Source: Sphingobium sp. Ant17
GTDB lineage: Bacteria > Pseudomonadota > Alphaproteobacteria > Sphingomonadales > Sphingomonadaceae
DNA: 64,000 nt
Direction: 5' to 3'
Assembly: GCF_000588875.1 (NCBI RefSeq)
Contig: NZ_JEMV01000005.1
Span: 184-64,183 of the forward strand
Below, one piece after another: positions 1-15,288 of this stretch; the first letter of the stretch is position 1, and each line of letters begins with the position of its first letter. The notes below the pieces were generated by a model. That model made no database searches and was not told the DNA's origin. It was given only the letters and a program-made list of their open reading frames with translations. The position numbers were made by a program, and so were the translations under genes.

Positions 1-499
1 TCTCGCCATAGAGACGACCTCTAAGGAACTCTACGTCCTGATATTCGAACTCACTGACTTCGTTCATCCATATTGACTGATATTCACTTCCCAGTTCACG
101 ATCTCGGTTGTGTTCATCAAGGCCACCAAAGGATATCACAGAGCCGTTGGGGAACGTCACAGACAGCGCAGACTTGTCGATGCTCTTGCTGAGATAGCCC
201 GATAGCCCAAGGGCATTCATGGCTTGGAATAGCGTCAGCTTGAACAGGTTACGTTCGCAGGCATTTCGATTGCGACGGAAAACGCCATGGCGGCTACCCG
301 GATATTCCTCGCAGAGCAGCAAGATATAGATCATGTAGAGCCACGATTTGCCTACACGACTGGACCCGGCGGCAAGCACATTCGGGACGTTGCTCTGTAG
401 CAGTTTGAGCAAACCCTCTTGAGGCTTTCTCAGTGTGAATGTCGGTGCCGCTGGTGCGGATGATGTCGCGGGCTTCGCGGTCTTTGTCGTTCTTGCCAT
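1..499 (-). CDS. terL: Phage terminase large subunit, N-terminal part (cut by window edge)
   Basis: The ORF runs off the left edge, leaving 166 codons. The large terminase is the ATPase/nuclease motor that packages DNA into the prohead. Visible are a Walker A-like AAGSSRVGKSW near residues 43-53, the FRRNRN segment that follows it in terminases, NGSVISFGGLDEHNRDRELG, and the Walker B-like YQSIWMNEVSEF with its catalytic acidic residue. The ATG at 499 is preceded by GGTAAATACCCG rather than a Shine-Dalgarno sequence, a motif shared with three other genes of this prophage. The small subunit is about 11 kb away, which is unusual. Confidence 0.85.
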   Translation of the reverse strand, partial: MARTTKTAKPATSSAPAAPTFTLRKPQEGLLKLLQSNVPNVLAAGSSRVGKSWLYMIYILLLCEEYPGSRHGVFRRNRNACERNLFKLTLFQAMNALGLSGYLSKSIDKSALSVTFPNGSVISFGGLDEHNRDRELGSEYQSIWMNEVSEFEYQDVEFLRGRLYGE

Positions 500-664
500 C
501 GGGTATTTACCGAGAGCAATGTGTCGTTCTGGATGCCTCCAAAGACTGTTAGTCTGTCAACATCAAAGAGGTGATATGTCTGGCGATAAATTGGATGATT
601 GCCGCGTCAGACGACGCAATACAGTGTGGGCAGCGAGGTGCTGCTACACATTGGAGTAGATCAA

Positions 665-1024
665 ATGACCAACTGGAAGCAGATCGTTAAGGCGGTAGAT
701 GGTTCGGACTTTTCCTCGTCGAACAAGGCCACACCCCGCGAACGCTTTATCGGCAATCTGCGCTCACAGCTTGCCCTCTTCAAAGATAGCGCGAAGGCCG
801 GTAAGCGGCATTTCGATATCAAGGGCGAGAAGATCAAGTTCAGCGCTCGTATGGGAAACATGGCCGTCGAATTGCTGCCCGGCAAGCGCGAGGTCGTGAT
901 GGAGAAGAAGGAATTTGCCGCAGTGATCGAGGCGGTCATTGCCGATGTCGAGAAGGGAGATTTCGACACCCAGTTAAATCGCATTGCTGAGAATTATGCG
1001 GGGCGGCGTAAAGCGGCCAAATAA
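665..1024 (+). CDS. Phage protein of unknown function (119 aa), paralogue of the 12746 gene
   Basis: The ATG at 665 is chosen because GGAG lies 8 bases upstream (653-656); an in-frame ATG at 599 has no such site. The protein is soluble and charged, with no membrane segment or known motif. It shows RERFIGNLRSQL near the start, a central K/G-rich part and a C-terminal block KKEFAAVIEAVIADVEKGDFD. The same order (KKFIKRIERAI, then KFPAFAAKLISAVEAGEFDDQ) is seen in the prophage protein at 12746-13324, so the two look related. A terminator-like hairpin follows 24 bases after the stop. It is transcribed divergently from terL. Function unknown. Confidence 0.7.
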   Translation: MTNWKQIVKAVDGSDFSSSNKATPRERFIGNLRSQLALFKDSAKAGKRHFDIKGEKIKFSARMGNMAVELLPGKREVVMEKKEFAAVIEAVIADVEKGDFDTQLNRIAENYAGRRKAAK

Positions 1025-1048
1025 GCCCGCTAGACCACCAACCTACAC

Positions 1049-1075
1049 GAGGGCGCCAACGTGCGCCCTCCTTTG
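1049..1075 (+). terminator. Rho-independent terminator-like hairpin
   Basis: Perfect 8-bp stem GAGGGCGC / GCGCCCTC with the loop caacgt, followed by CTTTG. It lies just after the gene ending at 1024 and before the endonuclease start at 1128, which argues against starting the endonuclease upstream at 984. The T-run is short. Confidence 0.55.
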
Positions 1076-1127
1076 TGACTACGCGACACGGGCATCAGAG
1101 GGGCGCTGTCGGCCCTGTAAATATGCG

Positions 1128-1460
1128 ATGACCAAATATCGAAACACCTATGAGGCGCGCTGCGCTGCCCAGCTTGGCCCGGAATTCGCTTATGAGCCGT
1201 TGAAGCTGACCTACACGATCACCCATACCTATTTGCCGGATTTCGTCCATGTTGAAGACAAGCGCATCGTGGAAGCGAAGGGTTATTGGGACGCCGATGG
1301 CAGGCGGCTCATTCGCGCAGTCATGGCGCAGAACCCCGATTATAATCTGGAAATGTGGTTTCAGAACCCCGACCTGAAAATCAGCAAGGGCAGCGCCACG
1401 ACATACGGGGATTGGTGCGACCGGCACGGCATCGCTTGGCGGAAAGGACCGGCCAAGTAG
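1128..1460 (+). CDS. T7-like phage endonuclease I (Holliday-junction resolvase)
   Basis: A 110-residue protein matching phage T7 gene 3 endonuclease I, which cuts branched DNA and Holliday junctions during phage replication and packaging. The four catalytic residues known for that family can be placed: E9 (TYEARC), D38 (LPDF), E49 and K51 (VEAKGYW). Family-typical SKGSATTYGDWCDRHGI lies near the C-terminus. T7 endonuclease I is 149 residues, so this is a compact version. The start at 1128 is preceded by GTAAATATGCG instead of a ribosome-binding site. An in-frame ATG at 984 would overlap the previous gene and run through the hairpin at 1049, so it is rejected. Confidence 0.85.
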   Translation: MTKYRNTYEARCAAQLGPEFAYEPLKLTYTITHTYLPDFVHVEDKRIVEAKGYWDADGRRLIRAVMAQNPDYNLEMWFQNPDLKISKGSATTYGDWCDRHGIAWRKGPAK

Positions 1461-1586
1461 AGTAAAGCATCAGTCCATATTATGTGGAGTGGCACGATGC
1501 CGATATCTATTGGTAGAACGCAGCGCGGCATCTTGTCGTGTTAACCATAGATATTTGAAATCAGCAGTATTTCGTCATTTTTCCTG

Positions 1587-1615
1587 TTGACATGGGCGGT
1601 CTATTAGGTCATATG
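1587..1615 (+). promoter_or_regulatory. Candidate sigma70-type promoter
   Basis: A consensus -35 box TTGACA (1587-1592) is followed after 17 bases by CATATG (1610-1615), a weak -10 box. It would drive the gene at 1834. The -35 match is perfect, the -10 match only partial. Confidence 0.35.
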
Positions 1616-1670
1616 CCCCTTCACCGCAGAAACAGCGGCGCTCTTTTACATCGTCAGATAAGAAACAGCC

Positions 1671-1691
1671 GACTTACACAACCTGTAAGTC
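1671..1691. repeat. Short perfect inverted repeat, possible operator
   Basis: GACTTACA / TGTAAGTC arms of 8 bases are separated by caacc. The repeat lies between the promoter candidate at 1587 and the gene at 1834, where a regulator site or a small mRNA hairpin would fit. No T-run follows, so it is not a terminator. Confidence 0.4.
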
Positions 1692-1833
1692 ATGGCGTCG
1701 CGGCCTCGCGGGACTTTTTGCGGTCACTCCATCGCATCAGTCTAAACGGTTGAACTCCGTTTCTCGCCACCGATCGGCAAAAGTGCCGACATTCGGGTTT
1801 AGCAGAGCCTTATCTGCCGGAGTTCATGTTCAA

Positions 1834-2772
1834 ATGCGTATTTGTAATCTCGCACAGGCAAGTCAGGCTGTTTCTTCCGCCCACCAATCCTATCTCGATT
1901 ATCTGAGCAACGAGGAGGGGCATAGCAAGACATGGGCAGATGATAGCCGCACTCGGCGGTTTGCCATGCTCGGCGCACTTTATGCGACTTGCCTTGCGCT
2001 GGTCGATGATCGCGATTTGCTTGCCCAGTTGTGCGTCAAGGAAGGCGTTCAGGTTCCAGACGCGACGGAAAATCCGTTTGCGCCCACGATCCGTCTCGTT
2101 TGCCGCACCAAGGATAAAAAGGGAAAGCTCGTAGCTGCGAAAAACAGCACTTGGATCTATTCCAAGTATTTTCGTGCCGCGCAGTTTTTGGGTTGGGCAT
2201 CTGATGAATTCGCTACCAACGTGGCGACCTACGAATTCGATGGCAAAGCGAAAAAGCAAAAGTGGTTGGCGGGCCTTGCTGCGCTCGACACGAAGGAATT
2301 TCCATCGCCCACATTCGATTTCGAAGCCCGAAAGGTCGAAGCCGCACGTATCTGGACTTCGCAGCTCGCCCCACATGACGGCACGGTCCAAGGCTTAAAG
2401 AGCGTCGAGGCACCGAAGCACGGTCAGATGATCGGCTTGATTGCCGAATGGAACGCCAAGTTATCTGTCTGGATCGTTCGTGGCGTCCATCAGGCCGACG
2501 ACAAAAAAGCCTTTGCGCTGATCTCCAAAGTCCTCACCAAGGATTTCGAGAAGCATATCGCGGATGAAGCGGTGCTTGAGCAAGAAGCCTATTTGGCCAA
2601 TAATCCGATTTTCACGGATGAAGCCGCACTACTCGATGCTGTCGCGGAACAGAACCGTGAGCAAGGCTTGGCCAATGACGGCACTAACGATCCTCACTTC
2701 CAGCGGATCGTCGTCGCCAAAGCCGGTCAGTCGAGTGCTGACACCTTCAACGCCGTTCAGGCAGCACAGTAA
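1834..2772 (+). CDS. Phage protein of unknown function (about 312 aa)
   Basis: The frame is open from 1750, but the ATG at 1834 (MRICNLAQ) is preferred because the upstream 28 residues look non-coding. No good ribosome-binding site decides it. The product is soluble and rich in charged and aromatic residues, with no signal peptide, membrane helix or recognised domain. The N-terminal part contains SYLDYLSNEEGHSKTWADDSRTRRFAMLGALYATC; the C-terminal part is acidic. It is followed after 54 bases by the gene at 2827, which has its own ribosome-binding site, so the two likely form one transcript. A structural or DNA-metabolism role cannot be separated here. Confidence 0.65.
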   Translation: MRICNLAQASQAVSSAHQSYLDYLSNEEGHSKTWADDSRTRRFAMLGALYATCLALVDDRDLLAQLCVKEGVQVPDATENPFAPTIRLVCRTKDKKGKLVAAKNSTWIYSKYFRAAQFLGWASDEFATNVATYEFDGKAKKQKWLAGLAALDTKEFPSPTFDFEARKVEAARIWTSQLAPHDGTVQGLKSVEAPKHGQMIGLIAEWNAKLSVWIVRGVHQADDKKAFALISKVLTKDFEKHIADEAVLEQEAYLANNPIFTDEAALLDAVAEQNREQGLANDGTNDPHFQRIVVAKAGQSSADTFNAVQAAQ

Positions 2773-2826
2773 GGCTTGAGGCGCTGGGCAGGATAATTTC
2801 TGCCCAGCTTGCCCTTGGAGATATCC

Positions 2827-3390
2827 ATGACATCGAAAAACAAAGACGCGGGGCTGCTGGCCCTGCTTGACCTCGCTCGTGCCAATAAGGTCCGACAGAG
2901 CCATGACGCCTTGCTGAAATCGAGCCTGAGCGTCGATGCGTTCGCGCGATACCGTGTTTTGCTTTCCAGTATCGCAGAAACGCAATTCAACCCGCGATAC
3001 ACCGAAGCGGTTAAGAAGGTGCCTGTTCCAAAAGAGGTGGACGCCTATGGCGCAGCGTTGGGGCGGGCTATGAAGGCCTATGACAAGGCTAAAGGCAAAC
3101 GCGGCGTTCTACGGAAGCGACTGGAAAAAGCGGAAGCTATGGTGCGGTACGCCCAAGAGGAAATCGACAGCAACGACGCGGTGATCACCAGAGGCAAGCA
3201 ACCCATGTGGGATCAGTTCGCGGCGCTCTCGCCGGAAGCTGTTGAATGGATCGTTCCCGGTTCTGGTGAGACAGGCTGGCCCGACAAGCGCATGGAGAAG
3301 CCTCCGATTGAGCAGGTTTTCCCCGGCGAGATGCTGCCGTGGTCACTAGCCCTCGCTGTCGTGGTCGAAGAGCTGCTCGGCGAACGCTGA
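2827..3390 (+). CDS. Phage protein of unknown function with a probable coiled coil (187 aa)
   Basis: The ATG at 2827 is chosen because GGAG (2817-2820) precedes it at good spacing. Residues about 75-115 (AYDKAKGKRGVLRKRLEKAE and on) are lysine/arginine/glutamate-rich and helical, suggesting a coiled coil. The C-terminal third is aromatic and proline-rich. No family is recognised. It lies downstream of the 1834 gene in the same direction and ends two bases before a perfect 23-bp palindrome. Confidence 0.65.
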   Translation: MTSKNKDAGLLALLDLARANKVRQSHDALLKSSLSVDAFARYRVLLSSIAETQFNPRYTEAVKKVPVPKEVDAYGAALGRAMKAYDKAKGKRGVLRKRLEKAEAMVRYAQEEIDSNDAVITRGKQPMWDQFAALSPEAVEWIVPGSGETGWPDKRMEKPPIEQVFPGEMLPWSLALAVVVEELLGER

Positions 3391-3391
3391 T

Positions 3392-3414
3392 CCACTCCAC
3401 ATCATGTGGAGTGG
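3392..3414. promoter_or_regulatory. Perfect 23-bp palindrome, candidate operator
   Basis: The arms CCACTCCACAT and ATGTGGAGTGG flank a single central C. The right arm ATGTGGAGTGG occurs exactly again at 1482-1492 with a degenerate left arm. A related palindrome, ACCCACATGTGGGT, lies at 12203-12216 upstream of the small-terminase gene. The one-base centre cannot form a hairpin loop and no T-run follows, so protein binding is the likelier use. Confidence 0.5.
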
Positions 3415-3482
3415 CCAAATGATCAATTTGAATATCGGAGCCGGGGCGACGCGTGTCGTCCTGGCCCTAAGGGCGTAGGAAT

Positions 3483-3815
3483 ATGAAGAAGAGCAATCTG
3501 CTACCCGGCACCTATCATGTCCACCTTAAGGGTCTTGATGAAAACACTGAAAATCCTTTGGTTTGGATCAAGGAAAATATCGATGGGCGGGTTGATGTAT
3601 TCTGGCACCAGTCTGACGATCCGACCGAACACGTTCATTTCAGAGCAGTGGTGAGGGGCAATATCTCAGCGAACGCATTTTACTCCCTGTCAGACGACAA
3701 CATGTTTGATTGGGAGGACGACCGAGACGATCCGGCATCCAACTGTACCGACCTCTATGCGTTCGAAAATCGCACGGAAGCCCTCCGGTTTAAGGTGATA
3801 TTCGGCGGGGTCTAG
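3483..3815 (+). CDS. Phage protein of unknown function (110 aa)
   Basis: Starts at an ATG with AGGA just upstream (gcgtaggaatATG). The protein is small, acidic and aromatic, with several D/E clusters (SDDNMFDWEDDRDDPASN) and no membrane segment or known motif. Such acidic proteins are sometimes phage DNA mimics, but nothing here shows that. It is separated from the preceding gene by the palindrome at 3392 and followed by the gene-free region with iteron-like repeats. Confidence 0.65.
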   Translation: MKKSNLLPGTYHVHLKGLDENTENPLVWIKENIDGRVDVFWHQSDDPTEHVHFRAVVRGNISANAFYSLSDDNMFDWEDDRDDPASNCTDLYAFENRTEALRFKVIFGGV

Positions 3816-4176
3816 GACGCCCGTGGAAGCCCTCTCAGCAGTTCCGTATCTCAGGGTTAGCTTGAGTGCGAAGATGTCGGGGTGGGCTTCCATGGGGCTG
3901 TGCGGGCAGGGCAGGGCGGGCCTCCCTCGGCGCAGCCAGTCCACTTCTTCATTTGTCCTGAGCGAAGCGAAGGGGACGAGCGGAGCGCTGGCTGTCGCAG
4001 ACATCTGGGCCGACGGAGGCATCTGGGCCGTCGGAGACATCTGACTGAAAGAGCGGAGCGACCTGACTTCATGGAACTCGTCAGAGCAGATCATGTCGCT
4101 CATGATTTCATTTCATTTCCATTCATTTCATTGCGTCTCTGAGGCGCGCTCTCAGAGCGACTTACAAGGGTCTAGA

Positions 4177-4270
4177 GTGTGAAAACGGGATGAAAACGGG
4201 ATGAAACAGGGATGAAAACGGGATGAAACAGGGATGAAAAATCTCTGTCACTTTCATCCCTTTTTCACAC
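4177..4270. repeat. Iteron-like array: five 11-bp direct repeats plus an inverted copy
   Basis: GGGATGAAA begins at 4187, 4198, 4209, 4220 and 4231, an exact 11-base period, so each copy faces the same side of the helix. TTTCATCCC at 4252-4260 is an inverted copy. The outer flanks also match: GTGTGAAAAcGGGATGAAA (4177-4195) mirrors TTTCATCCCtTTTTCACAC (4252-4270) with one mismatch. This suggests cooperative protein binding, as for a replication initiator or repressor. Confidence 0.7.
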
Positions 4271-4328
4271 CCTGAATAATGACGCGGCCTTATCAGGGCT
4301 GTTATTACAGTATTTGATAAATAGGTAT

Positions 4329-4446
4329 GAAGCATAGGCAGGGTTCGCAAGCTGCCGCTTCGGCAGTGGAATCCTGAATGCTTCGCTCCAACGCGAAAGA
4401 ACTTGAACCCGCTGTCCAATGCGAACCCGGACAGCGGGTTCTTTCG
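4329..4446 (+). ncRNA. Structured leader RNA or small RNA with a terminator and possible pseudoknot
   Basis: Three stacked stems can be drawn: GAAGCAT (4329-4335) with ATGCTTC (4378-4384), CAGGGTTC (4339-4346) with GAATCCTG (4369-4376, one G-U pair) and CTGCCG (4352-4357) with CGGCAG (4361-4366). A 13-bp perfect terminator-like stem follows (4405-4417 with 4429-4441) and then TTTCG. The terminator loop contains GCGAACCC (4421-4428), exactly complementary to GGGTTCGC (4341-4348), allowing a pseudoknot or alternative fold. It ends just before the ribosome-binding site of the gene at 4465, so it may be an attenuator or riboswitch-like leader, or a free small RNA. Confidence 0.55.
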
Positions 4447-4464
4447 TATATGGAGATTTAAATT

Positions 4465-5390
4465 ATGTGGTTCAAAAAGATCAATGCGGTCCTCGCCACC
4501 ATCGGCGGCGAATACGGCAAGGTGCCGGACAAGATGACCTACAACGTCATGGCGCGTGTCGTGAAGGACTTGATGGCAGGTAAAAGCATCGGCGGCACCC
4601 TTGCTACCAGCCTCGTCCAGAACATCGCAATCAGGGTCGGCCCCAGTGACTTCGCTTTTGAAGGCCCGATCAGCATCACCAAAAATCAGCGCAAATATGC
4701 CCGTAAGATGGGTTGGGGGACAATCGCTCCCTTCGAAGCCCTATACGGCCAGCCACAGTCTTCTGAGACGCATGATGCCGACTTTGCCCTACATGGCTTC
4801 TCCGACGACGACAGCGCGGTTGTGAGGGGCTTCCTCACCAAAGCGACAGCGGCGCAGCGCCAGCAACTTGTCGCGTGGATCAAGGCTCAGGACGAAGCGC
4901 CAACTGAGGAACTGGTCGAAACAGCGCCCGCGCCGGTGGCCACTGGGAAAGCGCCACGGATGCAGGACGCACTCACGATCTGGGTCAAGGAGAAGGCAGG
5001 CAAGATCAGGCAACCGGCAATCTCGACATTGCTGGCCAGAAGTTCAGCCTCATTTTCTCAGACTTCCATAGCGCGCTAGATCGCATCCCAGATACAGAGG
5101 ACAGCAGGTCATGGCGCGCAATCATGGCGGGCGAGGTCGCAAACACGATCTTGCCCGTTGAACGAAATTCTGAGGGGATTGCTGCGCGTTCGACAATGAG
5201 CGGCCTTTTCGCAGCCGATGACACCAACGGATATAAGTCGCCGATCCGTTCCAGCACGGCGGTCATTCTGGAATGGGACGGCGCGAAACCAGTTTGCGCG
5301 CATGTCTATGACGGGTCAGACTACACCGCCGTTTCCATGGATCAGCAGACAAACGACCGCTTCAAGGGCGTGGTGAGGTTCGCAGCATGA
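4465..5390 (+). CDS. Phage protein of unknown function, about 308 aa, broken by an apparent 1-bp deletion
   Basis: The ATG at 4465 is preceded by GGAG at suitable spacing, right after the structured leader. The first frame ends at 5079 with a tail that looks non-coding (LARSSASFSQTSIAR). A second frame, -1 relative to it, is open from 4908 to 5390 but has no start codon before 5124, although it reads like protein from about 5013 (NLDIAGQKFSLIFSDFHSAL). The simplest reading is one gene with a missing base near 5000-5013. No slippery heptamer is seen there. No domain is recognised. The stop overlaps the next start by four bases. Confidence 0.6.
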
Positions 5391-5575
5391 AGCCCGCGAA
5401 GCCACGCCGACGCTTTACCGAGACCGAGGATGCCCAGTTGGAGAAATTGCGTGTAGCGGGGCTGTCCTTGGCCCAAATCGCCAATCAGATGGGCAGGGCC
5501 AGGTCGAGCATACAGATGCGGCTCGTCACGCTGGCCAGGTACGACGACGATGACGATGAGCGCTTTCCAATATGA
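5387..5575 (+). CDS. Small helix-turn-helix (Myb/SANT-like) DNA-binding protein
   Basis: Sixty-two residues: a basic start (MKPAKPRRRFTETED), then QLEKLRVAGLSLAQIANQM and GRARSSIQMRLVTL, a helix-turn-helix of the SANT/Myb-like type found in small phage regulators, and an acidic tail DDDDDE. It starts at ATG 5387 within ATGA, overlapping the stop of the upstream frame, so the two are translationally coupled. A terminator hairpin follows at 5584. It probably binds DNA; its target could be the nearby palindromes or iterons, but that is a guess. Confidence 0.65.
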   Translation: MKPAKPRRRFTETEDAQLEKLRVAGLSLAQIANQMGRARSSIQMRLVTLARYDDDDDERFPI

Positions 5576-5583
5576 CGCTCAGG

Positions 5584-5616
5584 GGAATAGACCGGCTTTT
5601 CGGTCCATTCCTTTAT
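5584..5616 (+). terminator. Rho-independent terminator
   Basis: GGAATAGACCG / CGGTCCATTCC stem with one mismatch, loop gctttt, followed by TTTATT. It directly follows the helix-turn-helix gene. Nearly the same stem recurs at 6560-6587. Confidence 0.75.
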
Positions 5617-5634
5617 TAATTTGCGGGCTGTCAC

Positions 5635-5817
5635 TCATCTCGAATTTCGAGAGCACCAGATCCGAGGATCAGCATATTCCGCCGCATTGTCCGCACTTTC
5701 TATTTCCTCAAAGCCCGCACGAACGCACGATTGATAAGGCGAAAAATATAGGTGAACACCGAATATGAATATGATCGCACCAGCGAAAATAAGCGCGATC
5801 TTGACGCTATCCCTCAT
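5635..5817 (-). CDS. Small single-pass membrane protein (60 aa)
   Basis: The start at 5817 (MRDSVKIALIF) has GGAG nine bases upstream and is preferred over an in-frame ATG at 5835. Residues about 5-23 (VKIALIFAGAIIFIFGVHLYF) form one transmembrane helix. The rest is an outside or periplasmic tail with two cysteines (SPYQSCVRAG, IWCSRNSR). No known family. It is a lone minus-strand gene between two terminators, typical of an independently expressed prophage accessory gene. Confidence 0.55.
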   Translation of the reverse strand: MRDSVKIALIFAGAIIFIFGVHLYFSPYQSCVRAGFEEIESADNAAEYADPRIWCSRNSR

Positions 5818-5902
5818 GTCTAAGTTCTCCAGCATCGTATCTTATCGACAGCCAAGGAAGCGATGCGATGATGACGTGCGCTTTCTAATATGACGCCCAT
5901 GA

Positions 5903-5935
5903 AAATGGCCCGGAACGATGCTTCCGGGCCATTTT
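5903..5935. terminator. Strong bidirectional terminator hairpin
   Basis: A stem of about 12 bp, AAATGGCCCGGAA (5903-5915) with TTCCGGGCCATTT (5922-5934), is flanked by T-runs in both reading directions. It lies just downstream of the minus-strand gene ending at 5939 and serves that gene at least. Confidence 0.8.
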
Positions 5936-5938
5936 CCT

Positions 5939-6442
5939 TTATAGCGAGATTGCGTCCGCCTTGGTGTAGCTGAGTTCCCAACTGGACTTGCCCAGACCGC
6001 CGCCGCCGAACGCGCCGTTCTCGAACTTCTTAAAACGCATCGACACACCATCGGGGCGACCCCATACGGCGACCTTGCCCTGACGAGCCAATATGCTGCC
6101 GCCACTGCTATCCCAATTTGCGGGCTGGCCATACTTGGCAGACAGCGAGGTCAGGACATCATTGGAGCAGCGGCCACCCATTGAGGGGTTCCCAGCGATC
6201 ATGACTTCCCGAACCAGCCCGGCATCATCGAACCGGATATTCGCTTCGGCGGCACATTTCTCGGTGATCTGAATGTCGCTGATTTCGATATTCTTGGGCT
6301 GATGGCTTACGCCTTTGCCCTTGGGATACAAGGCTTCAACTTGTGCGCGGGTCATGCCGAATTCGATGTTCTTCCAAACCGGTTCCGCGTTGGCCTGAGT
6401 TGCGATGCCCATCAAGAGCGCCGCCGCAATATACTTCTTCAT
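5939..6442 (-). CDS. Exported protein of unknown function (167 aa)
   Basis: A clear cleavable signal peptide is present: MKKYIAAALLMGIATQANA, with cleavage expected before EP. The mature part contains FGMTRAQVEALYPKGKG, a motif seen in small secreted bacterial proteins where a short helix begins 'xGMTxxqVxxlyPxa', then two cysteines (EKCAAE, GGRCSND) that could form a disulfide, and a glycine-rich C-terminus. The start has GGAGG upstream. Secreted prophage cargo of this kind may modify host fitness, but no specific role can be read. Confidence 0.7.
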   Translation of the reverse strand: MKKYIAAALLMGIATQANAEPVWKNIEFGMTRAQVEALYPKGKGVSHQPKNIEISDIQITEKCAAEANIRFDDAGLVREVMIAGNPSMGGRCSNDVLTSLSAKYGQPANWDSSGGSILARQGKVAVWGRPDGVSMRFKKFENGAFGGGGLGKSSWELSYTKADAISL

Positions 6443-6559
6443 TATTTCCTCCCTGTGGATGGAACCACGGCATAAAGTCGTTGGCCCTAACAGTCATCCT
6501 TATAAGCGACTGACAATGAGGAATTCTGAAACAGTAATTCCGGCACTGGACCACTCATG

Positions 6560-6592
6560 GGAATGGACCGACAAGCCGGTCCATTCCTTTTT
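6560..6592 (+). terminator. Terminator-like hairpin, plus-strand orientation
   Basis: Perfect 11-bp stem GGAATGGACCG / CGGTCCATTCC, loop acaagc, followed by TTTTT. Near-copy of the terminator at 5584. It faces a short gap with no visible plus-strand gene and overlaps the end of the minus-strand gene at 6592, so it may block incoming antisense transcription. Confidence 0.6.
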
Positions 6593-6798
6593 CAGTTTGA
6601 GGGTAGGCCAGCCCGTTCAAGCAATTCGGGCGTTGCCCCTTCAAGCATTAGCGCAGCGGTGCGCAAGCAAGACAACATACCCTCTTGCTCATGCTCAGAG
6701 AGCGCGTCGAACGCCTCTACATCATCCTCCATCGAACCGATACACTGGTTCATGTCCTGTGCGGTGTTTTCCCACTTACAGTAGCTCATGTTTGCCAT
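6592..6798 (-). CDS. Small acidic protein of unknown function (68 aa)
   Basis: The ATG at 6798 has an excellent ribosome-binding site (AAGGAG, 8 bases upstream). The product is acidic and predicted helical, with three cysteines: MANMSYCKWENTAQDMNQC, ALSEHEQEGMLSC. No signal peptide, membrane helix or known motif. It is a lone minus-strand gene beside the plus-strand gene starting at 6978. Confidence 0.6.
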   Translation of the reverse strand: MANMSYCKWENTAQDMNQCIGSMEDDVEAFDALSEHEQEGMLSCLRTAALMLEGATPELLERAGLPSN

Positions 6799-6977
6799 TC
6801 TCTAAACTCCTTCTGCGTTGTTCGCACAATCACAGTGCTGCCATTCAACTAGGCAGTCATCCAATCAATGACGCCTAGAGCGCCTTTCTGAACTTGACAG
6901 TCGAAGGCAGTGGATGGGCAGTTCTATAAATATGAGAAACATAAAAAGAGGCTGGATAGCGGCCCATAGGAGTAGCA

Positions 6978-7646
6978 GTGGCGAGAACAGTGAATGGCGT
7001 ATGCCGAGATAACAAACCGGAATGGCAGGCTTGGAACAACGCGCGTCATCGCTGCCTGAGCACTAATAACCCGTTCTATCCCAAGTATGGCGGTCAGGGC
7101 ATCACGATCTGTAACGAGTGGGCAGATGACTTTGCGACATTTCTCACGGATATGGGCAAGCGTCCTAGCCCCAAGCATGAACTTGGCCGCCTTGATAGCA
7201 AGCTGGGATATAACCCCTCCAATTGCGCTTGGATGACCCGTCAACAGATCATGCTGCGTCAACCACCTAGAACGAAACCCAATAGGCCCAATCGACCTCC
7301 CATCACATACAAGGGAGTGACCCGCAGTTTGAGGGACTGGGCAAAGCATCTGGGCATTGGCGAGACGGCTCTAGGGCATCGACTGTCAACTTACGGATGG
7401 ACACTAGATGAGGCACTGGGTGGACAGCCGCGTTCGGTCAGTCGTGGATATCCCAAGAAGCACTACGTGGAGTGGAAGGGTGAGACACGGCATGTCAGTG
7501 AATGGGCAGAGCAAGCCGGTATATCGCGCTGTTGTCTCTTAGGTCGCATATTTCGTCTGGGTTGGACGATGGATCGAGCAATGACTGAACCCAAAGGGCA
7601 ATACCACAGAAAGGCAAAGCCAGAAAAGTCACCAGAAGATCAATGA
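6978..7646 (+). CDS. Phage HNH/AP2-like DNA-binding protein with two repeated helix-turn-helix modules
   Basis: Residues about 12-90 (EWQAWNNARHRCLS ... YGGQGITICNEWADDF ... LGRLDSKLGYNPSNCAWMTRQQ) match the domain common in phage homing-type proteins, where 'GIxVCxxW...F' is followed by 'xRxDsxxGYxPxNCxW'. Two copies of a helix-turn-helix module follow: VTRSLRDWAKHLGIGETAL ending GWTLDEAL, and ETRHVSEWAEQAGISRCCL ending GWTMDRAM. These modules occur in the C-termini of homing endonucleases and target DNA. The classic HNH triad is not clearly seen, so nuclease activity is uncertain. The protein likely binds DNA; free-standing homing endonucleases are frequent phage hitch-hikers. Confidence 0.7.
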   Translation: MARTVNGVCRDNKPEWQAWNNARHRCLSTNNPFYPKYGGQGITICNEWADDFATFLTDMGKRPSPKHELGRLDSKLGYNPSNCAWMTRQQIMLRQPPRTKPNRPNRPPITYKGVTRSLRDWAKHLGIGETALGHRLSTYGWTLDEALGGQPRSVSRGYPKKHYVEWKGETRHVSEWAEQAGISRCCLLGRIFRLGWTMDRAMTEPKGQYHRKAKPEKSPEDQ

Positions 7647-7709
7647 GTGGATGACGCGGCAGTCAGATGGCTATTGATAGAGCGGCACGAACTTGATGGA
7701 GTAAGTGCT

Positions 7710-7907
7710 ATGTTTGTTGCCCTAGATGATCTCGTAGATGACCTGACCCGCTTTGTTGAACTCGACGCAGATCATTGGAGATCGCAAGAGGGCAGTTTCC
7801 AGTTCAATGACCTCGCGCTCTTCTACCGCAAGTTCGATGATGTCATTGAGTTTGAATGCGAGGGTGTCGTGATCGAAGCAGAGCGCTATGTTCTCATGCT
7901 TTGCTAG
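7710..7907 (+). CDS. Small acidic protein of unknown function (65 aa)
   Basis: The frame is open from a GTG at 7647, directly after the preceding stop, but the ATG at 7710 has GGAG eight bases upstream and is preferred. The protein is acidic (DDLVDDLTRFVELDADHW, DDVIEFECEGVV) with no known motif. It overlaps the end of the convergent KAP ATPase gene by four bases. Confidence 0.5.
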   Translation: MFVALDDLVDDLTRFVELDADHWRSQEGSFQFNDLALFYRKFDDVIEFECEGVVIEAERYVLMLC

Positions 7908-9412
7908 AGTGACACAGATTCCCTATTTCCGTCTTGATCCACCACCTCAACAAATCTCATTAACTCCCTCACGCGGTTACGGTATTCCGACCACGTTGGT
8001 AGCTGTTCTGTCGATCCGATACGATGGCTGCGATTGAAGCGAACTTGATACTCGTCTCCCAGAGTACGCGTCATGTAACCGTATAAGCCGTGATCTTCAT
8101 TGTTACGGGATATCTGGTCAAGCGAGTTCTTAAACCCACGCTGATAAATTGGGAATAGCTCAGTGGATGTATGCTTGGTCACATTCCCTTCCCCGTCGCT
8201 GTCATACATTAAGAAGCGCAATTCAGGTGGGCCTAGGGTATCAACATGCGGTTCAAGCTCGTTGCCTCTGACGAGATTCAAAAGGAGGGCGAGAAGGAGG
8301 GGAAGTTCAATAGGAACTCGACCGTGATCCCAATTTGAGATAAAAAGTCGTAACGCATCTACTACAGCCTGCGCCTCTCTCGGCGTAGCCCTCCATTCGG
8401 ACAGCAATAGCCCAGTGGCCTGCTCTGGTGTCAAAATCACGTGCTTGCCATCGACTTCAACGTCAGGGAAACTGAACTTAACCTCACTTGGAGGTATGTC
8501 GCCAAATAGGCCAATGACCAGTTCCGAAATCGACAGCCGCCTCAGTTCATAGTGTCTAGTAAAAAACCTGCGAAGGTATGCGGTGGCATCGAATTTAGCA
8601 CCATATACTGCTTCAATGCTGGCCGTGAGTTGCCGTCCATGAAGGGCGATGACGAACACCACGCCGGGAACATCAAAAAGGTGCTTAATGCTTTCTAGCA
8701 GGGCTATGGCGTAATCAGGACGGCAGCGATCAAGTTCATCGACCACGACAAATATCGGTGCCTGGCGAGGGTCAACATCAGATTTCTCAATAGATGCTGC
8801 TAGTTTTTCGAGACTATCTTTGAACGACCTGCGAGAATTCTGGCGAACACGATATTGCTCAAGAAGGGCTTTTCCAGCGCTATCTACTACTTCGCTTACC
8901 TCTTCGGTCAGCTTATCGAATCCCGCTTCTATTACTTCCTCATTTCGTTTGGTTCTCGCAGCATCAATCGCAGCTTTTGCTTCCTTACCAATTTGATCAC
9001 CAATGTAACGGGCAGCTAATCTGCCACCAGCCGATATGGCAGCTTTGCCGAGAATGGGGAGGGCGGCCCGTGTCAGATCACCAAGTCTGTTCTTGACCTT
9101 TTCAGACTTCAGAAATGGTTGAAGAGCCTCATCAAGAGCCGACATAATGGATACGAGAGGTTCATTGTTGGCGTCGTCAATCCAAGCGTCAACGAATGCG
9201 ACAGGATGATTGATCGCCAACTGCTTCGCAAAACGGTCGAGAAACCAGCTTTTCCCTTCACCGTATTGGGCGTCGAGGGCTAATACGAATGACTGGGACC
9301 GACCTAATCGCTTTAAAGTGTCGGTCTCGTTCAGCAAAAATCGTTCGAGCAGGCGAGCTTCGGATCGGCGATCTAGCTTATCGCCTTCCCAGATTTGATC
9401 CAAATTCCGCAT
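7904..9412 (-). CDS. KAP-family P-loop ATPase, likely prophage cargo (possible phage exclusion)
   Basis: A 502-residue P-loop NTPase with Walker A GEGKS at 51-55 and Walker B IFVVVDELDRC at about 220-230, the signature of the KAP family (named for Kidins220/ARMS and PifA). A hydrophobic stretch between the motifs (about 117-138, LPILGKAAISAGGRLAARYI) fits the membrane insert found in many KAP proteins. PifA of plasmid F excludes phage T7, and KAP proteins are often found among defence genes; that role here is inference. It is transcribed against the neighbouring phage genes, as cargo genes often are. GAGG precedes the start. Confidence 0.8.
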   Translation of the reverse strand: MRNLDQIWEGDKLDRRSEARLLERFLLNETDTLKRLGRSQSFVLALDAQYGEGKSWFLDRFAKQLAINHPVAFVDAWIDDANNEPLVSIMSALDEALQPFLKSEKVKNRLGDLTRAALPILGKAAISAGGRLAARYIGDQIGKEAKAAIDAARTKRNEEVIEAGFDKLTEEVSEVVDSAGKALLEQYRVRQNSRRSFKDSLEKLAASIEKSDVDPRQAPIFVVVDELDRCRPDYAIALLESIKHLFDVPGVVFVIALHGRQLTASIEAVYGAKFDATAYLRRFFTRHYELRRLSISELVIGLFGDIPPSEVKFSFPDVEVDGKHVILTPEQATGLLLSEWRATPREAQAVVDALRLFISNWDHGRVPIELPLLLALLLNLVRGNELEPHVDTLGPPELRFLMYDSDGEGNVTKHTSTELFPIYQRGFKNSLDQISRNNEDHGLYGYMTRTLGDEYQVRFNRSHRIGSTEQLPTWSEYRNRVRELMRFVEVVDQDGNRESVSL

Positions 9413-9508
9413 CTTGCCACCTCATTTCCGAGTTTGGATTTTCGGCCAAACTATACGCTCTGTTAACCGTCGACACATTAATCCGGCAATACATTTCATT
9501 ACGGGGCC

Positions 9509-9850
9509 ATGGTTTTGTCGAGCAAATTCAATATCCAGATCAACGTCGATCTCAAAGATATCGCGCCGGAACGCAAAGGCGAGTTCAACCCTGAAATCGC
9601 GGCAGCCGTTTTTCAAGACCTCATCTTGAGGGCGGCTCGGCTCCAGATGAAAACTCAAGTCGAGGCGACGAGAGCGCGGCCTGACCTTGATAGCGACGTG
9701 AAGACGATCAAGATGGCGGAAAACCTGCGCGGTATGATGCTGGGGATCATGGCAGAAGCCAATATGACAGTCACGGAACTCCCCGCAGATACGATCATCA
9801 GTACCGAGTTGCCTTTCGAGCGGAAATACGGGGACGGCGAAGCGGCATGA
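9509..9850 (+). CDS. Phage protein of unknown function (113 aa)
   Basis: Opens at the ATG at 9509, divergent from the KAP gene across about 95 bases that must hold both promoters. The ribosome-binding site is weak (acggggcc). The product is soluble, with an N-terminal strand-rich part (SKFNIQINVDLKDIAPE) and a helical middle. No recognised motif. Its stop overlaps the next start within ATGA, indicating coupled translation of a small cluster running to 10357. Confidence 0.6.
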   Translation: MVLSSKFNIQINVDLKDIAPERKGEFNPEIAAAVFQDLILRAARLQMKTQVEATRARPDLDSDVKTIKMAENLRGMMLGIMAEANMTVTELPADTIISTELPFERKYGDGEAA

Positions 9851-10020
9851 TCGACAAAGAAGTTCAAAAGATCGTCAAACAGGCGACCTTACCCGCTCTT
9901 GTCAAACAGGGGCTTTTGGCAGAGTTTAACTCTCACTGGATCAAGGTAGAAGCAGCCAAGCAGAACGAAGGTGGCTTTGATGTCGATCTCGCGCCTACAA
10001 AAAGAACCCGGACGCTATGA
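9847..10020 (+). CDS. Small coupled phage ORF (57 aa)
   Basis: Begins at the ATG of an ATGA overlap with the preceding gene and encodes MIDKEVQKIVKQATLPALV and on, a lysine-rich helical peptide ending RTRTL. The following ORF (9980) overlaps its last 41 bases in another frame. The coupling favours a real gene, but the size and overlap leave doubt. No function recognised. Confidence 0.45.
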   Translation: MIDKEVQKIVKQATLPALVKQGLLAEFNSHWIKVEAAKQNEGGFDVDLAPTKRTRTL

Positions 10021-10357
10021 GGTCAATCTAGGTGGACGAAATGGCGACCTGATAGTCGGTTTTATGGATGCTATCTATGTCGTCGCCGATGAATTGAAAA
10101 ATGATGATACCGATGGGTTTCGCTCTTACAACGAGACGGTATCCGTCGCAGGAGCAATGATTGAACTGTTCATTGAAGGGGTAATGCCCTACTCGGCAGA
10201 AAAGCAATGGGCCACGGCAAATGGATATTCCTTCACGACATCGAGAGATGCGTTTGGCACTGTTTGGTATGTGGAGTTCACTGATCCCAAAGCGATATCG
10301 TTTGCGAAAATATCAGGTAACTTCAAAGCGCGGCAGGCAGTAACGGTCGATGAATAG
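9980..10357 (+). CDS. Phage protein of unknown function (125 aa)
   Basis: The ATG at 9980 (MSISRLQKEPGRYEV) with GAAGG upstream is preferred over a GTG at 9971. It is a mixed alpha/beta protein with RNGDLIVGFMDAIYVVADEL and a C-terminal part rich in aromatic residues (YSFTTSRDAFGTVWYVEF). No known family. It is the third member of the cluster from 9509. After its stop comes a short imperfect direct repeat. Confidence 0.55.
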   Translation: MSISRLQKEPGRYEVNLGGRNGDLIVGFMDAIYVVADELKNDDTDGFRSYNETVSVAGAMIELFIEGVMPYSAEKQWATANGYSFTTSRDAFGTVWYVEFTDPKAISFAKISGNFKARQAVTVDE

Positions 10358-10381
10358 GCGACTGAAAAATATCTCAGAGAC

Positions 10382-10448
10382 GGTTGGTTTCTAAAACGTA
10401 GGAATAAAAATCTGGTCAGCAGATTGGTTTCTAGAACTGAGGAATTTA
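10382..10448. repeat. Imperfect direct repeat, 27 bases at 40-base spacing
   Basis: Copies at 10382-10408 and 10422-10448 share TTGGTTTCTA and AGGAAT blocks (about 21 of 27 identical by eye). They lie between the cluster ending at 10357 and the resolvase gene. They could be a recombination remnant or binding sites. Confidence 0.4.
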
Positions 10449-10603
10449 GTTTCTTACCCATGTAGCGCCTCAGCAGCAGGTCGATATACACCCCCAAGGG
10501 TCCGACCGCTTGCCCCCCTTGCTATCACTGATGCCCGTAGAAGCCCGCTCGCAGACCATCGGGATCGGCGGGGCAGTAGGTTAGCTCTACGGGGCCGCGG
10601 TGC

Positions 10604-11152
10604 TTATAGGTCGTCTGAGGGCATCAACCGATAAACGGACTGCCGAGAGATACCCATCGTTCGGGCTACCACGCTGGGGTTCATCCCCTCCAATAGCATC
10701 GTCCTTACCCGATGGGCGTCAATGCGGGTCTTTCCGCCCTTATACGCGCCAGCGGACTTCGCTTTGTCGATGCCCTCTCGTTGACGCTCTGCGCGCAGTC
10801 CAGTTTCGAACTCCGCGACACTGCCGAGGACACCCAGCATGAGCTTGCCGTGTGGGGTAGTGGTATCGACGCCAGCCTGATCGACGCATCGAAAGCCCAC
10901 ACCGCGACTGGCTAGCCGGGAGAGCATGTTATGGAGATCGACCATCGACCGAGCGAAGCGGTCAAGCCGGGTGACGAGCAGAACGTCGCCCTCACGCACA
11001 AAGTCCAAACAGTTCTGTAGCTCTGGACGATCAGCAGTTGTGCCTGACCTCTTTTCACTGAACACGCGCTCACACCCTTGGGAGGCGAGGCGTTCAAGCT
11101 GTATGGTCAGGTCTTGGTCAGTAGTGGATACGCGGGCATAGCCGACAAGCAT
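10604..11152 (-). CDS. Serine recombinase, resolvase/invertase family
   Basis: A 182-residue small serine recombinase. The catalytic serine is S9 in GYARVSTTDQDLTIQ. The conserved arginines lie in LVTRLDRFARSMVDL, FETGLRAERQREGI marks the end of the catalytic domain, and a C-terminal helix-turn-helix (GMNPSVVARTMGISRQSVYRLM) binds DNA. Full length is typical for Tn3-type resolvases or Hin/Gin invertases. An inverted TGTCACAT site lies just upstream at 11190-11224, suggesting a res site. It may resolve phage or transposon dimers. It lies between the separated terminase genes, hinting that a mobile piece entered there. GAGG precedes the start. Confidence 0.9.
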   Translation of the reverse strand: MLVGYARVSTTDQDLTIQLERLASQGCERVFSEKRSGTTADRPELQNCLDFVREGDVLLVTRLDRFARSMVDLHNMLSRLASRGVGFRCVDQAGVDTTTPHGKLMLGVLGSVAEFETGLRAERQREGIDKAKSAGAYKGGKTRIDAHRVRTMLLEGMNPSVVARTMGISRQSVYRLMPSDDL

Positions 11153-11189
11153 GATGTGTCACCTCAGGTTCTAGACCCCAAGGGTATGT

Positions 11190-11224
11190 TGTCACATGAC
11201 TGGGAGAGCAACCTATATGTGACA
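11190..11224. promoter_or_regulatory. Candidate recombinase (res) site
   Basis: Perfect 8-bp arms TGTCACAT (11190-11197) and ATGTGACA (11217-11224) are spaced to give a 35-bp site, close to the size of resolvase subsites. Further TGTCA-type half-sites occur at about 11157 and 11232. It lies directly upstream of the resolvase gene, the usual place for res and its autoregulated promoter. Confidence 0.5.
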
Positions 11225-11275
11225 CTCAGCCTGTCATACGCAGGTGTAGCCTCAGGGTTTAGTCTGTCGCTACAG

Positions 11276-11464
11276 CTAAGCCGAGCGCACGAGGCCGGAA
11301 GGAACTGCCCTTCGCGCCAGATGGGGTTGATTCAGCACGGCTTCATACTGCTTTGCGTGGCTGAGGTGAATGTCACGCACAGACGGCATCGTAGCAGAAG
11401 ATGCCATTTCCAAAGACTTAGCGAGACGGGCTTCGTAGTAGGAGCGATCAAAGCTCTCATTCAT
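11276..11464 (-). CDS. Small protein of unknown function, YYEAR type (62 aa)
   Basis: The ATG at 11464 has a strong GGGAGG site upstream. The sequence MNESFDRSYYEARLAKSLEM followed by ASSATMPSVRDIHLSHAKQYEAVL has the look of short alphaproteobacterial proteins with a 'YYxxRaxxELxxAxxAxxpxvxxxHxxLAxxY' helical pattern. Function unknown in that group. It is upstream of the resolvase and in the same direction. Confidence 0.6.
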   Translation of the reverse strand: MNESFDRSYYEARLAKSLEMASSATMPSVRDIHLSHAKQYEAVLNQPHLARRAVPSGLVRSA

Positions 11465-11614
11465 TGTTGCCTCCCAATTTATCGAGTCGATTGGCTTTAC
11501 AAGGATGCCAGCTTTACCCTGAGAGTCCAATACGATTTCGATACTTCATACCTGCCGTCAAATTAAGTAACTGATATTCCACAAGCTATTGATTTCCCGG
11601 CTAACTTCTCGATG

Positions 11615-12112
11615 CTAGAGTTTGTCTTCGTCCTTACCCTCCGGCTCCACATCGCTTATCTCACCCTCAATCACTGGCAAGCCGAACCCCTGAAACTGAG
11701 CAGGCAGGTTGATGACCGGCCTAGTGTCCGTGACCTCTATCTGCTGGCTGTCACCAAAGACCTTGCGGTTGTATTTTCCGGCAAGCCACATGAGCGCCTT
11801 GACCTTCAGTTCATCACGGCGAATGTCACCCGTGCTGAGACTGCCCCCTGATGCGATATTCTCGATGGCTTCACCGAAATAGCGCGCCTTCCATTTGTAG
11901 GCATCGTCTATGAACTTCTCGAACTCTGGATCGGCGGCCATCCACTTGGATATCGTGCCACGACCGGGCATCTTGGGGTCTTCGCATATCTCAATGAGTG
12001 AATAACCGGCAGCAAGCCTAGCCCAAATCTCTTCGGTCAGTTTCTCAGTTCGCTTATATGGCTGCTTCCTTGTGCGTTTAGCCTTAGCCTGTATCTCTCT
12101 ACCGGCCGTCAT
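11615..12112 (-). CDS. terS: Phage terminase small subunit
   Basis: A 165-residue DNA-recognition subunit of the packaging terminase. KLTEEIWARLAAGYSLIEIC with MPGRGTISKWMAADPEFEKF forms the N-terminal helix-turn-helix, and YKWKARYFGEAIENIASG and DELKVKALMWLAGKYNRKVFGD are typical of Sf6/P22-like small terminases. An in-frame GTG at 12121 overlaps a short upstream ORF and could be the true start. Usually terL follows directly; here terL (1-499) lies in the same direction but about 11 kb away, with unrelated genes between. Confidence 0.85.
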   Translation of the reverse strand: MTAGREIQAKAKRTRKQPYKRTEKLTEEIWARLAAGYSLIEICEDPKMPGRGTISKWMAADPEFEKFIDDAYKWKARYFGEAIENIASGGSLSTGDIRRDELKVKALMWLAGKYNRKVFGDSQQIEVTDTRPVINLPAQFQGFGLPVIEGEISDVEPEGKDEDKL

Positions 12113-12117
12113 CGCAT

Positions 12118-12192
12118 TCACACTAAGGCTTTCGCACCATTCGGTTTTGGTGTTTTCGCCATTGTTTCTCCCGTTGTCGTCTGCTTCTCCAT
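12118..12192 (-). CDS. Possible 24-aa leader peptide upstream of terS
   Basis: ATG at 12192 opens MEKQTTTGETMAKTPKPNGA (then KALV), whose stop overlaps the alternative GTG start of terS at 12121. The start is preceded by GGTAAATAGCCGT, the motif also found before terL, endonuclease I and the 12701 gene. An internal ATG with GGGAG could start a 14-aa version. It is small and unproven, but its position suggests translational coupling to terS. Confidence 0.3.
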   Translation of the reverse strand: MEKQTTTGETMAKTPKPNGAKALV

Positions 12193-12202
12193 ACGGCTAT
12201 TT

Positions 12203-12216
12203 ACCCACATGTGGGT
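12203..12216. promoter_or_regulatory. Perfect 14-bp palindrome, candidate operator
   Basis: ACCCACATGTGGGT overlaps the GTAAATA motif upstream of the terS leader. Its core CCACAT-ATGTGG is shared with the 23-bp palindrome at 3392-3414, suggesting one prophage regulator acts at both places. Confidence 0.45.
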
Positions 12217-12332
12217 TATCTCTTGGCTCTTTGCCTCTTTCTTGGCACCCAGTGGTAGTCAGCATTAATGCCGTTTTCTGACGGTTCTCATGCTATTGTG
12301 CTGCGTCTGTCGTGCTTTAACGGCTTATAGGT

Positions 12333-12701
12333 CTAATGAAGGATATCTCTCAGCGCATCTTTCAGCTTTAAGTCACACACGTAGATAGCCGCTATGTGTC
12401 GATAAGCCTTTATGTTGCCAGACGATACTTCGTCTCGTAGATGTCGTGTGACCACTTTTGTCATGTCTGGGTCATCAAGTTCTCTATCTAGGAACTTCCA
12501 CTCGTATCCGCTCTTATGCTCTACTAGTATGTCCATTATGTCGCTTAGACGTTCTGTGTCATCTTCATCGTCTGTGGCTTGTATTACGAGCTTTAACGTG
12601 TCGAATGTCGAGGAGGGTTTGATGTCGATCCAGTCAGACATCTTGAGGATCAGTAGGGGTAGGGGATTGTCGCTCTGGACTTTCTTGAGGTTCTGGGTCA
12701 T
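12333..12701 (-). CDS. Phage protein of unknown function (122 aa)
   Basis: The ATG at 12701 is preceded by TGTAAATACCTG and no Shine-Dalgarno sequence, as for terL. The protein is soluble and acidic in the middle (QATDDEDDTERLSDIMDIL), with a helical C-terminus (IKAYRHIAAIYVCDLKLKDA). No known motif. It is divergent from the gene at 12746, with only 44 bases between starts, so the promoters must overlap. Confidence 0.6.
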   Translation of the reverse strand: MTQNLKKVQSDNPLPLLILKMSDWIDIKPSSTFDTLKLVIQATDDEDDTERLSDIMDILVEHKSGYEWKFLDRELDDPDMTKVVTRHLRDEVSSGNIKAYRHIAAIYVCDLKLKDALRDILH

Positions 12702-12745
12702 CAGGTATTTACAGAACCATCAGATGACATGTTGTGGAGGTCGTT

Positions 12746-14968: not shown

Positions 14969-15014
14969 GCCATTTCCCCTAACTTCTAAAGTGTTAGGAA
15001 TTTGCTATACAGAT

Positions 15015-15227: not shown

Positions 15228-15288
15228 CCAAAGCGCTTCGTTCGTCGGTCAGGCGCCTAAACCCGGCTGACTATCGGAGTTTGTTTTG

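Follow-up and report, generated by a model that had tools for sequence, protein, structure and literature searches.

What is the structured stretch that precedes the gene at 4465 in a 64,000-nucleotide segment of Sphingobium sp. Ant17 DNA (the window; contig C5 of a genome, G000, in 199 contigs)? The stretch appears to form several stems followed by a terminator-like hairpin, and the loop of that hairpin matches a strand far upstream. We asked whether the structure and the match are real, whether related elements keep them, and what such a leader might do.

A structured leader in a prophage

The first ~15 kb of the window look like the end of a prophage. They carry genes for a T7-type endonuclease I, a terminase small subunit and a large serine recombinase (13160-14968), and six genes are held in common with a viral contig piece, L023, that carries the same leader. 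A seventh gene pair was discounted, being an antisense frame of the resolvase. These genes bear out the prophage setting proposed in a preliminary description of the locus. Across 4180-4465 the elements follow one another: first 11-bp direct repeats with an inverted copy, next GATAAATAG, which is conserved, then the structured leader, and last the ribosome-binding site that serves the 4465 gene. The features are as follows.

4180-4273, plus strand: tandem 11-bp direct repeats (TGAAAACGGGA-like) at 4180-4239, then an inverted copy at 4252-4273
4316-4324, plus strand: conserved GATAAATAG, a -10-like element directly 5' of the RNA
4328-4362, plus strand: alternative hairpin HA, with UGAAGC (4328-4333) facing GCUUCG (4357-4362) and GGCAG (4337-4341) facing CUGCC (4352-4356)
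4329-4384, plus strand: 5' domain in fold B, made of P1 (4329-4335/4378-4384), P2 (4339-4346/4369-4376) and P3 (4351-4357/4361-4367)
4341-4349, plus strand: kissing strand GGGUUCGCA, the exact complement of UGCGAACCC at 4420-4428
4386-4455, plus strand: P5, in which the anti-SD CUCCA (4386-4390) pairs with UGGAG (4451-4455) and is predicted to mask the ribosome-binding site
4405-4441, plus strand: P4, a terminator-like 13-bp stem whose loop (4418-4428) contains the kissing partner UGCGAACCC (4420-4428)
4440-4447, plus strand: U-rich tail UCUUUCGU, which pairs also with GCGAAAGA (4393-4400) in the computed fold
4465-5079, plus strand: first gene after the leader, with no Pfam or PHROG match

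The minimum energy of 4320-4470 was -67.8 kcal/mol, against -42.3 +/- 4.1 kcal/mol for shuffled versions, none of which (0 of 200) equaled it (z -6.27), confirming that the leader at 4329-4455 is structured. All three nested stems described earlier were present in the predicted minimum-energy fold, where P1, P2 and P3 together form one long hairpin. The 13-bp stem P4 (4405-4417/4429-4441, loop 4418-4428) is perfect; of these 13 pairs the computed fold keeps 11, the two final bases on the 3' side pairing instead with GA at 4399-4400. The base of P4 is lengthened by GCGAAAGA/UCUUUCGU and then by CUCCA/UGGAG. This pairing of the stem base with the ribosome-binding site was absent from the preliminary description, as was the second, mutually exclusive 5' hairpin, HA. 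The designation of P4 as terminator-like holds for the stem but not for a clean U-run after it, the tail reading UUCUUUC.

The sequence ATAAATA stands immediately before P1 in all 19 members of the family described below, for which several searches had selected. A sigma-70 scan scored no promoter at 4316-4324. The 11-bp repeats at 4180-4273 are probable regulator sites upstream of the promoter; by eye, L023 likewise has direct repeats (GGGTGCTGCAA-like) and an inverted copy upstream of its leader. We also saw by eye a palindrome, TATTACTCT..AGAGTAATA, common to L037 and L038 and lying before the leader.

Relatives of the leader and the loop match

A DNA similarity search with 3400-6000 gave no match in phages or plasmids, and the protein encoded at 4465-5079 gave none in viral contigs, genome contigs, plasmids or phages. 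Among 397 genomes of the same family that protein had a relative, besides the window's own genome, in G386 only. The G386 protein is a distant relative (29% over 68 aa), and upstream of its gene lies the same leader with other loop letters. No match was found for an alignment of the two proteins in viral contigs, for the G386 protein in plasmids and phages, for the products of 1750-2772 and 5124-5390 in viral contigs, for that of 1750-2772 in phages, or for the L023 helicase in phages. The L034 protein had distant matches only, with at most 24.5% identity among the matches listed. Short DNA matches in G103, G208 and G066 lay in other contexts and were taken as chance.

We built a covariance model, R1, from the two leaders of the window and G386. 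R1 and two kiss-containing DNA patterns, which returned 21 pieces of viral contigs, yielded members in L012, L014, L017, L023 and L028; the other 16 pieces had no full model match and are not members. These five members are no independent test of the loop match (the kiss), as the patterns that found them held part of the loop or kissing strand. A kiss-free pattern returned five pieces of viral contigs, all of them members: L034 was new, and L014, L017, L023 and L028, not L012, were found again. R1 matched 3 of the 397 family genomes, two of the matches being real. A second model, R2, built from eight members, found the element in 8 of 94 whole genomes of the same genus (the window's own included), at 10 places. 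It matched 5 of 396 genomes in a sample of the order (4 real) and 3 of 385 in a sample of the class, where the match was real only in the window's own genome. Two divergent copies in L048 were added with a pattern that combined the promoter with HA.

With duplicates removed (L067, equal to L023, and L059, equal to L072), the RNA family has 19 members. Besides the window, 8 come from viral contigs and 10 from other genomes of the same bacterial family, 8 of these 10 belonging to the same genus. Twelve (L034, L037-L039, L068-L073 and both L048 copies) came from searches not requiring the kiss; models R1 and R2 nevertheless contain the kiss columns as letters. The two L048 copies, L048+ (E 4e-6) and L048- (E 4e-4, close to rejected matches), owe their membership partly to the kiss.

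Of the 25 pieces returned by the promoter-plus-HA pattern, 20 were rejected as chance, 13 without an 8-bp stem and 7 with a loop match of 4-6. The kiss-free pattern had two matches in genome contigs, both rejected as chance: L032, which has no hairpin, and L033 (19.8 bits, E 0.0096). Model matches were also rejected in G378 (a terminator-like fragment), in L010/G073 (inside a coding gene) and in L035, L036, L040, L045 and L057. Among the rejected loci, L010, L033, L035, L045, L057 and three of the places in L036 had a loop match of 2-6.

The family corresponds to no named RNA family, as had been supposed. At gathering level Rfam left the leader unmatched, the sole match in the window being a tRNA elsewhere, and the members in L012, L023, L034 and L048 had no match. 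A relaxed search (E up to 10) of 4150-4550 gave 13 sub-threshold matches, every one of them within the upstream repeats; in L017 and L037-L039 it gave only a CRISPR-repeat match, which was below the cut-off and lay on the strand opposite to the L017 element. The model of the c4 antisense RNA (RF01695) was unmatched in the window at gathering level and in 4150-4550 at E up to 10. The prophage RNA IsrK has an Rfam family, whose model matched neither the window nor 4150-4550, so that no homology was seen. We found no description of the element in a full-text collection that covers a minority of subscription papers.

The fold is conserved through coordinated change. In an alignment of 11 members, 94.4% of cells were paired and 21 of 34 pairs had changed on both sides (18 of 25 in the nested helices, 3 of 9 in the kiss); 0 of 500 shuffles did as well, and sliding abolished the signal. 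Both sides had changed in 3 of 5 pairs of P1, 3 of 5 of P3, 9 of 12 of P4 (with 100% of cells paired) and 3 of 3 of P5. P4 was present in all 19 members, with U-rich tails of which that of L048- is the weakest. A DNA-only role, as a single-strand origin, is disfavored by the terminator polarity, the U-rich tail, the G-U pairs in P4 and the pairing of the ribosome-binding site.

The loop match itself had been reported as an exact complementarity between the 8-mers GGGTTCGC (4341-4348) and GCGAACCC (4421-4428). It is exact, and it lengthens to 9 nt (A4349 with T4420). Within 1-15300 of the window the 8-mer occurs at these two places only, where 0.47 would be expected on both strands, and shuffling of the loop produced a match of at least 9 in 3 of 3000 trials. 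Covariation of the two 8-base strands had been set as the test of the proposal, and they proved complementary in 19 of 19 members, in 13-14 letter classes. The longest perfect Watson-Crick match between terminator loop and 5' domain was 7-10 bp in every member, and the kiss was kept in 17 of 17 when the weakest members, L048+ and L048-, were left out. Joining cross matches of 7 or more gives 14 classes, or 13 if a one-way match between G386 and L014 merges those two; between classes the match was 2-6. When loops were re-paired at random, the observed sum was reached in 0 of 20,000 trials. The kiss is therefore not chance, since the match has been kept by coordinated change across 19 members. 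Its letters included GGGTTCGCA, GGGCTCGC, GGTTCGGA, GGCTCGAA, GGCCTGAA, GGGTCCAA, GATTCTGGAA, GACTGTCA, GACTGAGA, GACTGGA, GACCGTCAA, GACTTTGGA, GACATCGAAA and GACACGAC.

The close relatives L038 and L070 illustrate such a change: GACTGTCA in one against GACTGAGA in the other goes with TGACAGTC against TCTCAGTC, the letters of P2 being unchanged. They differ in 4 of 16 kiss columns, on both sides, and in 6 of 134 columns elsewhere, the other 128 being identical. For L068 and L071 the differences were 4 of 16 kiss columns and 19 of 119 others, and for the window and L017 they were 0 of 18 and 29 of 136. Of the 10 pairs compared, 4 showed more change in the kiss columns than elsewhere and 6 showed less, so that the kiss has no general excess of change. 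In the alignment of 11 members, where some kiss columns are misaligned, 83% of the kiss helix was paired, and 3 of its 9 pairs had changed on both sides. By eye, the relatives do not preserve a pairing between the kiss strand and the 5' arm of P4.

These results describe an RNA family that covaries strongly, is unmatched in Rfam and is placed before phage early genes; in it the terminator loop has co-evolved with an upstream strand. The leader is carried by viruses integrated in sphingomonad-like bacteria, and its matching letters vary from virus to virus.

Competing pairings and the genes downstream

The idea of two alternative states fared well, in that P2 and the kiss contend for one strand. 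Folded by computation, the first 75 nt gave the P1-P2-P3 hairpin in all 11 members tested, and in the full computed fold at least half of the kiss strand was paired in 17 of 19 members. The two that fell below were L073 (4 of 9 nt) and L048- (0 of 8); in L028 and L048+ the partner of the strand was not P2.

Between the P3 loop (GCUUC, GUCUUC, GUUCUUC, ACUUCA or GUUCA) and the 5' strand of P1, 5-8 bp can form, G-U pairs allowed, in 11 of 11 members tested. We therefore propose a second hairpin, HA, whose loop would contain the kissing strand. In the window the strand lies mostly in a 10-nt loop (4342-4351), HA rules out P3 and the distal pairing of P1, and GAAGC, CUGCC and the kissing strand have two partners each. 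When only the first 48 nt of the transcript were folded by computation, HA resulted in 4 of 11 members (the window, L034, L028 and L039). The difference between own and cross matches in HA was clear for L023, L028 and L038 only, because GAAG/CUUC is nearly constant.

The pairing of the ribosome-binding site also extends to the relatives. The SD 6-mer was at least partly paired in 13 of the 14 gene-bearing members, L048- being the exception, and 4 or more of its 6 nt were paired in 11 of 14; the SD strings were picked by eye, and the partner was P5 or its neighborhood. In L048-, a third occurrence of the kiss 8-mer lies over the ribosome-binding site of the next gene.

The leader thus has the mutually exclusive upstream pairings of an attenuator (P2 versus the kiss, HA versus P1 and P3) and a GC-rich stem with a U-rich tail before the first gene, a convincing first gene following in 14 of 19 members. 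A classical anti-terminator that opens P4 by strand exchange appeared in none of the members' computed folds except for the kiss helix of L048+, where that helix forms and P4 is broken, as expected of an ON state. P4 was kept in the other 18 of 19 folds, which by their nature cannot show the kiss beside P4.

The first genes themselves vary. Those of L012, L023 and L072 encode VapE-like proteins; those of L034 and the related L017 belong to PHROG 2467, L017 having a DEAD domain; and L014 with L073, L037 with L038 and L070, and the window with G386 make up further families, among others. In several members the downstream gene is a replication-type helicase. Where the first genes are homologous the kisses differ, and the kiss GGGTTCGC precedes three genes without detectable similarity (in the window, L017 and L037). 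No convincing gene comes right after the terminator in L028, L039, L068, L071 and L048+: L028, L039 and L071 have no ORF of 60 aa or more within 500 nt of it, and L068 (65 aa) and L048+ (139 aa) have only TTG-started ORFs without an SD. The RNA thus moves as a module whose kiss is not tied to the gene. A suspicion, formed by eye, that the 4465 gene continues in another frame found no support with tblastn.

A candidate RNA gate and its rivals

Covariation, prophage context and competing pairings all support the earlier suggestion of a prophage regulatory RNA, here a putative attenuator-like leader. Comparison of the members demonstrates a conserved structure and complementarity, a predicted pairing of the ribosome-binding site, and promoter-like and terminator-like flanks. 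From this comparative evidence we think it probable that the leader is an attenuator, or RNA gate, that acts on early and sometimes replication genes of phages, with RNA-RNA kissing as its switch.

The transcript would begin just after GATAAATAG, the predicted start, with the bistable 5' domain, and the next hairpin would join the intrinsic-terminator-like stem P4 with the base P5 that pairs with the ribosome-binding site. Both a short RNA and a read-through mRNA would exist. During synthesis HA would fold first and present the kissing strand in its loop. That strand would capture the P4 loop as it leaves the polymerase, closure of P4/P5 would be hindered, and RNA polymerase and ribosome would proceed into the downstream gene (ON). 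In the OFF state the 5' domain would pass into P1-P2-P3, the kissing strand would be buried and P4/P5 would close, giving a short RNA of about 115 nt that ends before the gene. Because in several members a replication-type helicase lies downstream, the likely role of the switch would be to decide the start of the early program by a resident or entering phage. That a 7- to 10-bp duplex in a loop of 9-12 nt hinders P4 is only a steric argument, and kissing could equally stabilize the OFF hairpin. A purely cis-acting gate does not explain the five members without a convincing gene.

ColE1 RNA I/RNA II and similar systems are kissing antisense pairs made of two RNAs from opposite strands, and their loops have free letters, strict complementarity and specificity classes. 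The leader resembles them in its free letters and strict complementarity but holds both partners in one RNA. What we would rate as new is an attenuator-like phage leader whose terminator loop is predicted to kiss a bistable upstream hairpin; the attenuator kind itself is known.

According to the accessible part of the published account, IsrK of Salmonella Gifsy-1 is a short RNA that ends at a terminator, and the read-through mRNA has a hidden ribosome-binding site that the short RNA opens in trans (PMC4825925). The leader is like IsrK in being a prophage RNA with its own terminator, internal complementary segments and alternative structures, all predicted for the leader, and in hiding the ribosome-binding site of the read-through mRNA by structure (a prediction that holds at least in part for 13 of the 14 gene-bearing members). 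It differs in that IsrK acts in trans on orf45-anrP, and kissing of a terminator loop is not described in that part of the account (PMC4825925). The CI RNA of satellite phage P4 and c4 of P1, as far as the same text treats them, are likewise leaders with premature termination and pairing between segments of one leader, in a replication operon (PMC4825925). P4 uses a processed antisense RNA and two flanking target segments, where our leader has one kissing strand and the terminator's own loop.

Control in trans, as in IsrK or P4 CI, is possible for our leader but rather unlikely. The short RNA would pair, by its kissing strand or its loop, with read-through or newly made copies, setting termination or opening the hidden ribosome-binding site, and the differing letters would be specificity tags that prevent resident elements from controlling one another. 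This would suit the five members without a convincing adjacent gene, the different kisses before homologous first genes and the occurrence of GGGTTCGC before three dissimilar ones; two copies each are found in the genomes G1042 and G1062 and the contig L048, every pair with different kisses, and IsrK, with the same parts, works in trans in the portion of its description available (PMC4825925). However, three differing pairs are expected by chance given 13-14 kiss classes, the kiss columns change no faster overall (more in 4 of 10 pairs, less in 6), the intramolecular match would compete with pairing in trans, and 1-15300 of the window holds no further copy of the kiss 8-mer.

It is more doubtful that the kiss is an exchangeable self/non-self tag, a loop-strand code particular to each temperate element, by which the short leader RNA of a resident would gate the early genes of an incoming phage of the same code; we lowered our estimate because the kiss columns are not the faster-changing ones in 6 of 10 compared pairs. 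If true, it would amount to an immunity to superinfection that works through RNA alone, without protein, and of which 13-14 specificities can already be seen. The leader is a simple system in which to study the influence of loop kissing on termination and on translation, and possibly RNA-coded immunity of phages too; it could also give orthogonal on/off switches.

The put RNA of phage HK022, in the text accessible to us, is ~70 nt long, and its two stem-loops, located at the exit channel of the polymerase, suppress downstream terminators (PMC9378689). Our leader is similarly a structured RNA right after a phage early promoter (predicted here) and bears on termination, and like putL it precedes a terminator and lies where phage early transcripts are predicted to start (PMC9378689, same text). 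Such RNA-only antitermination, in which the 5' domain would bind the polymerase and carry it past P4 and later terminators while the kiss shapes the RNA, is nonetheless very improbable: the predicted architecture differs from the two stem-loops in ~70 nt of put, for which that text describes no kissing with a terminator loop (PMC9378689), the letters of the 5' domain drift while what stays constant is the complementarity with the loop of the terminator, and the leader has no Rfam match. Least probable is a riboswitch-like leader that senses a ligand or protein, with the kiss as part of the binding pocket, since a bistable 5' domain ahead of a terminator and a hidden ribosome-binding site would suit it but the downstream genes are diverse, few unpaired letters are constant, nothing in the alignment of 11 is pocket-like, and the only unpaired block that comes near constancy is CUUC in the P3 loop, which is explained by the pairing in HA.

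Several further observations concern the surroundings of the leader. The two copies in L048 (2678-2804, minus strand; 2871-3000, plus strand) are divergent, lie 66 bp apart and have different kisses. Just upstream of the G386 leader is a second, weaker element (L007, 8659-8784, minus strand; 26.9 bits) with the same ATAAATAG start, a CCCGCTAGG...CCTAGCGGGTT terminator and a loop match of only 4. In the same piece of G386, near a serine recombinase and the leader, a DUF4365 protein gene is followed by a 486-aa gene (3629-6459) that has no Pfam match and by eye resembles prokaryotic Argonaute. Small phage ORFs, frequently near the leader, have in common by eye a C-terminal motif like AMLFKLTFGG (3483-3815 in the window, 2591-3121 in L017, and in L069 and L041 [L037]). 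Adjoining the serine recombinase in the window is, by eye, a fragment of a DedA-like membrane protein (14937-15227), perhaps the integration site of the prophage. A secreted-looking protein at 5939-6442 (minus strand) is 80% identical to a protein that another genome (L042) encodes downstream of its leader, and inside the prophage a KAP-family P-loop NTPase gene (7904-9412) is possibly a defense gene.
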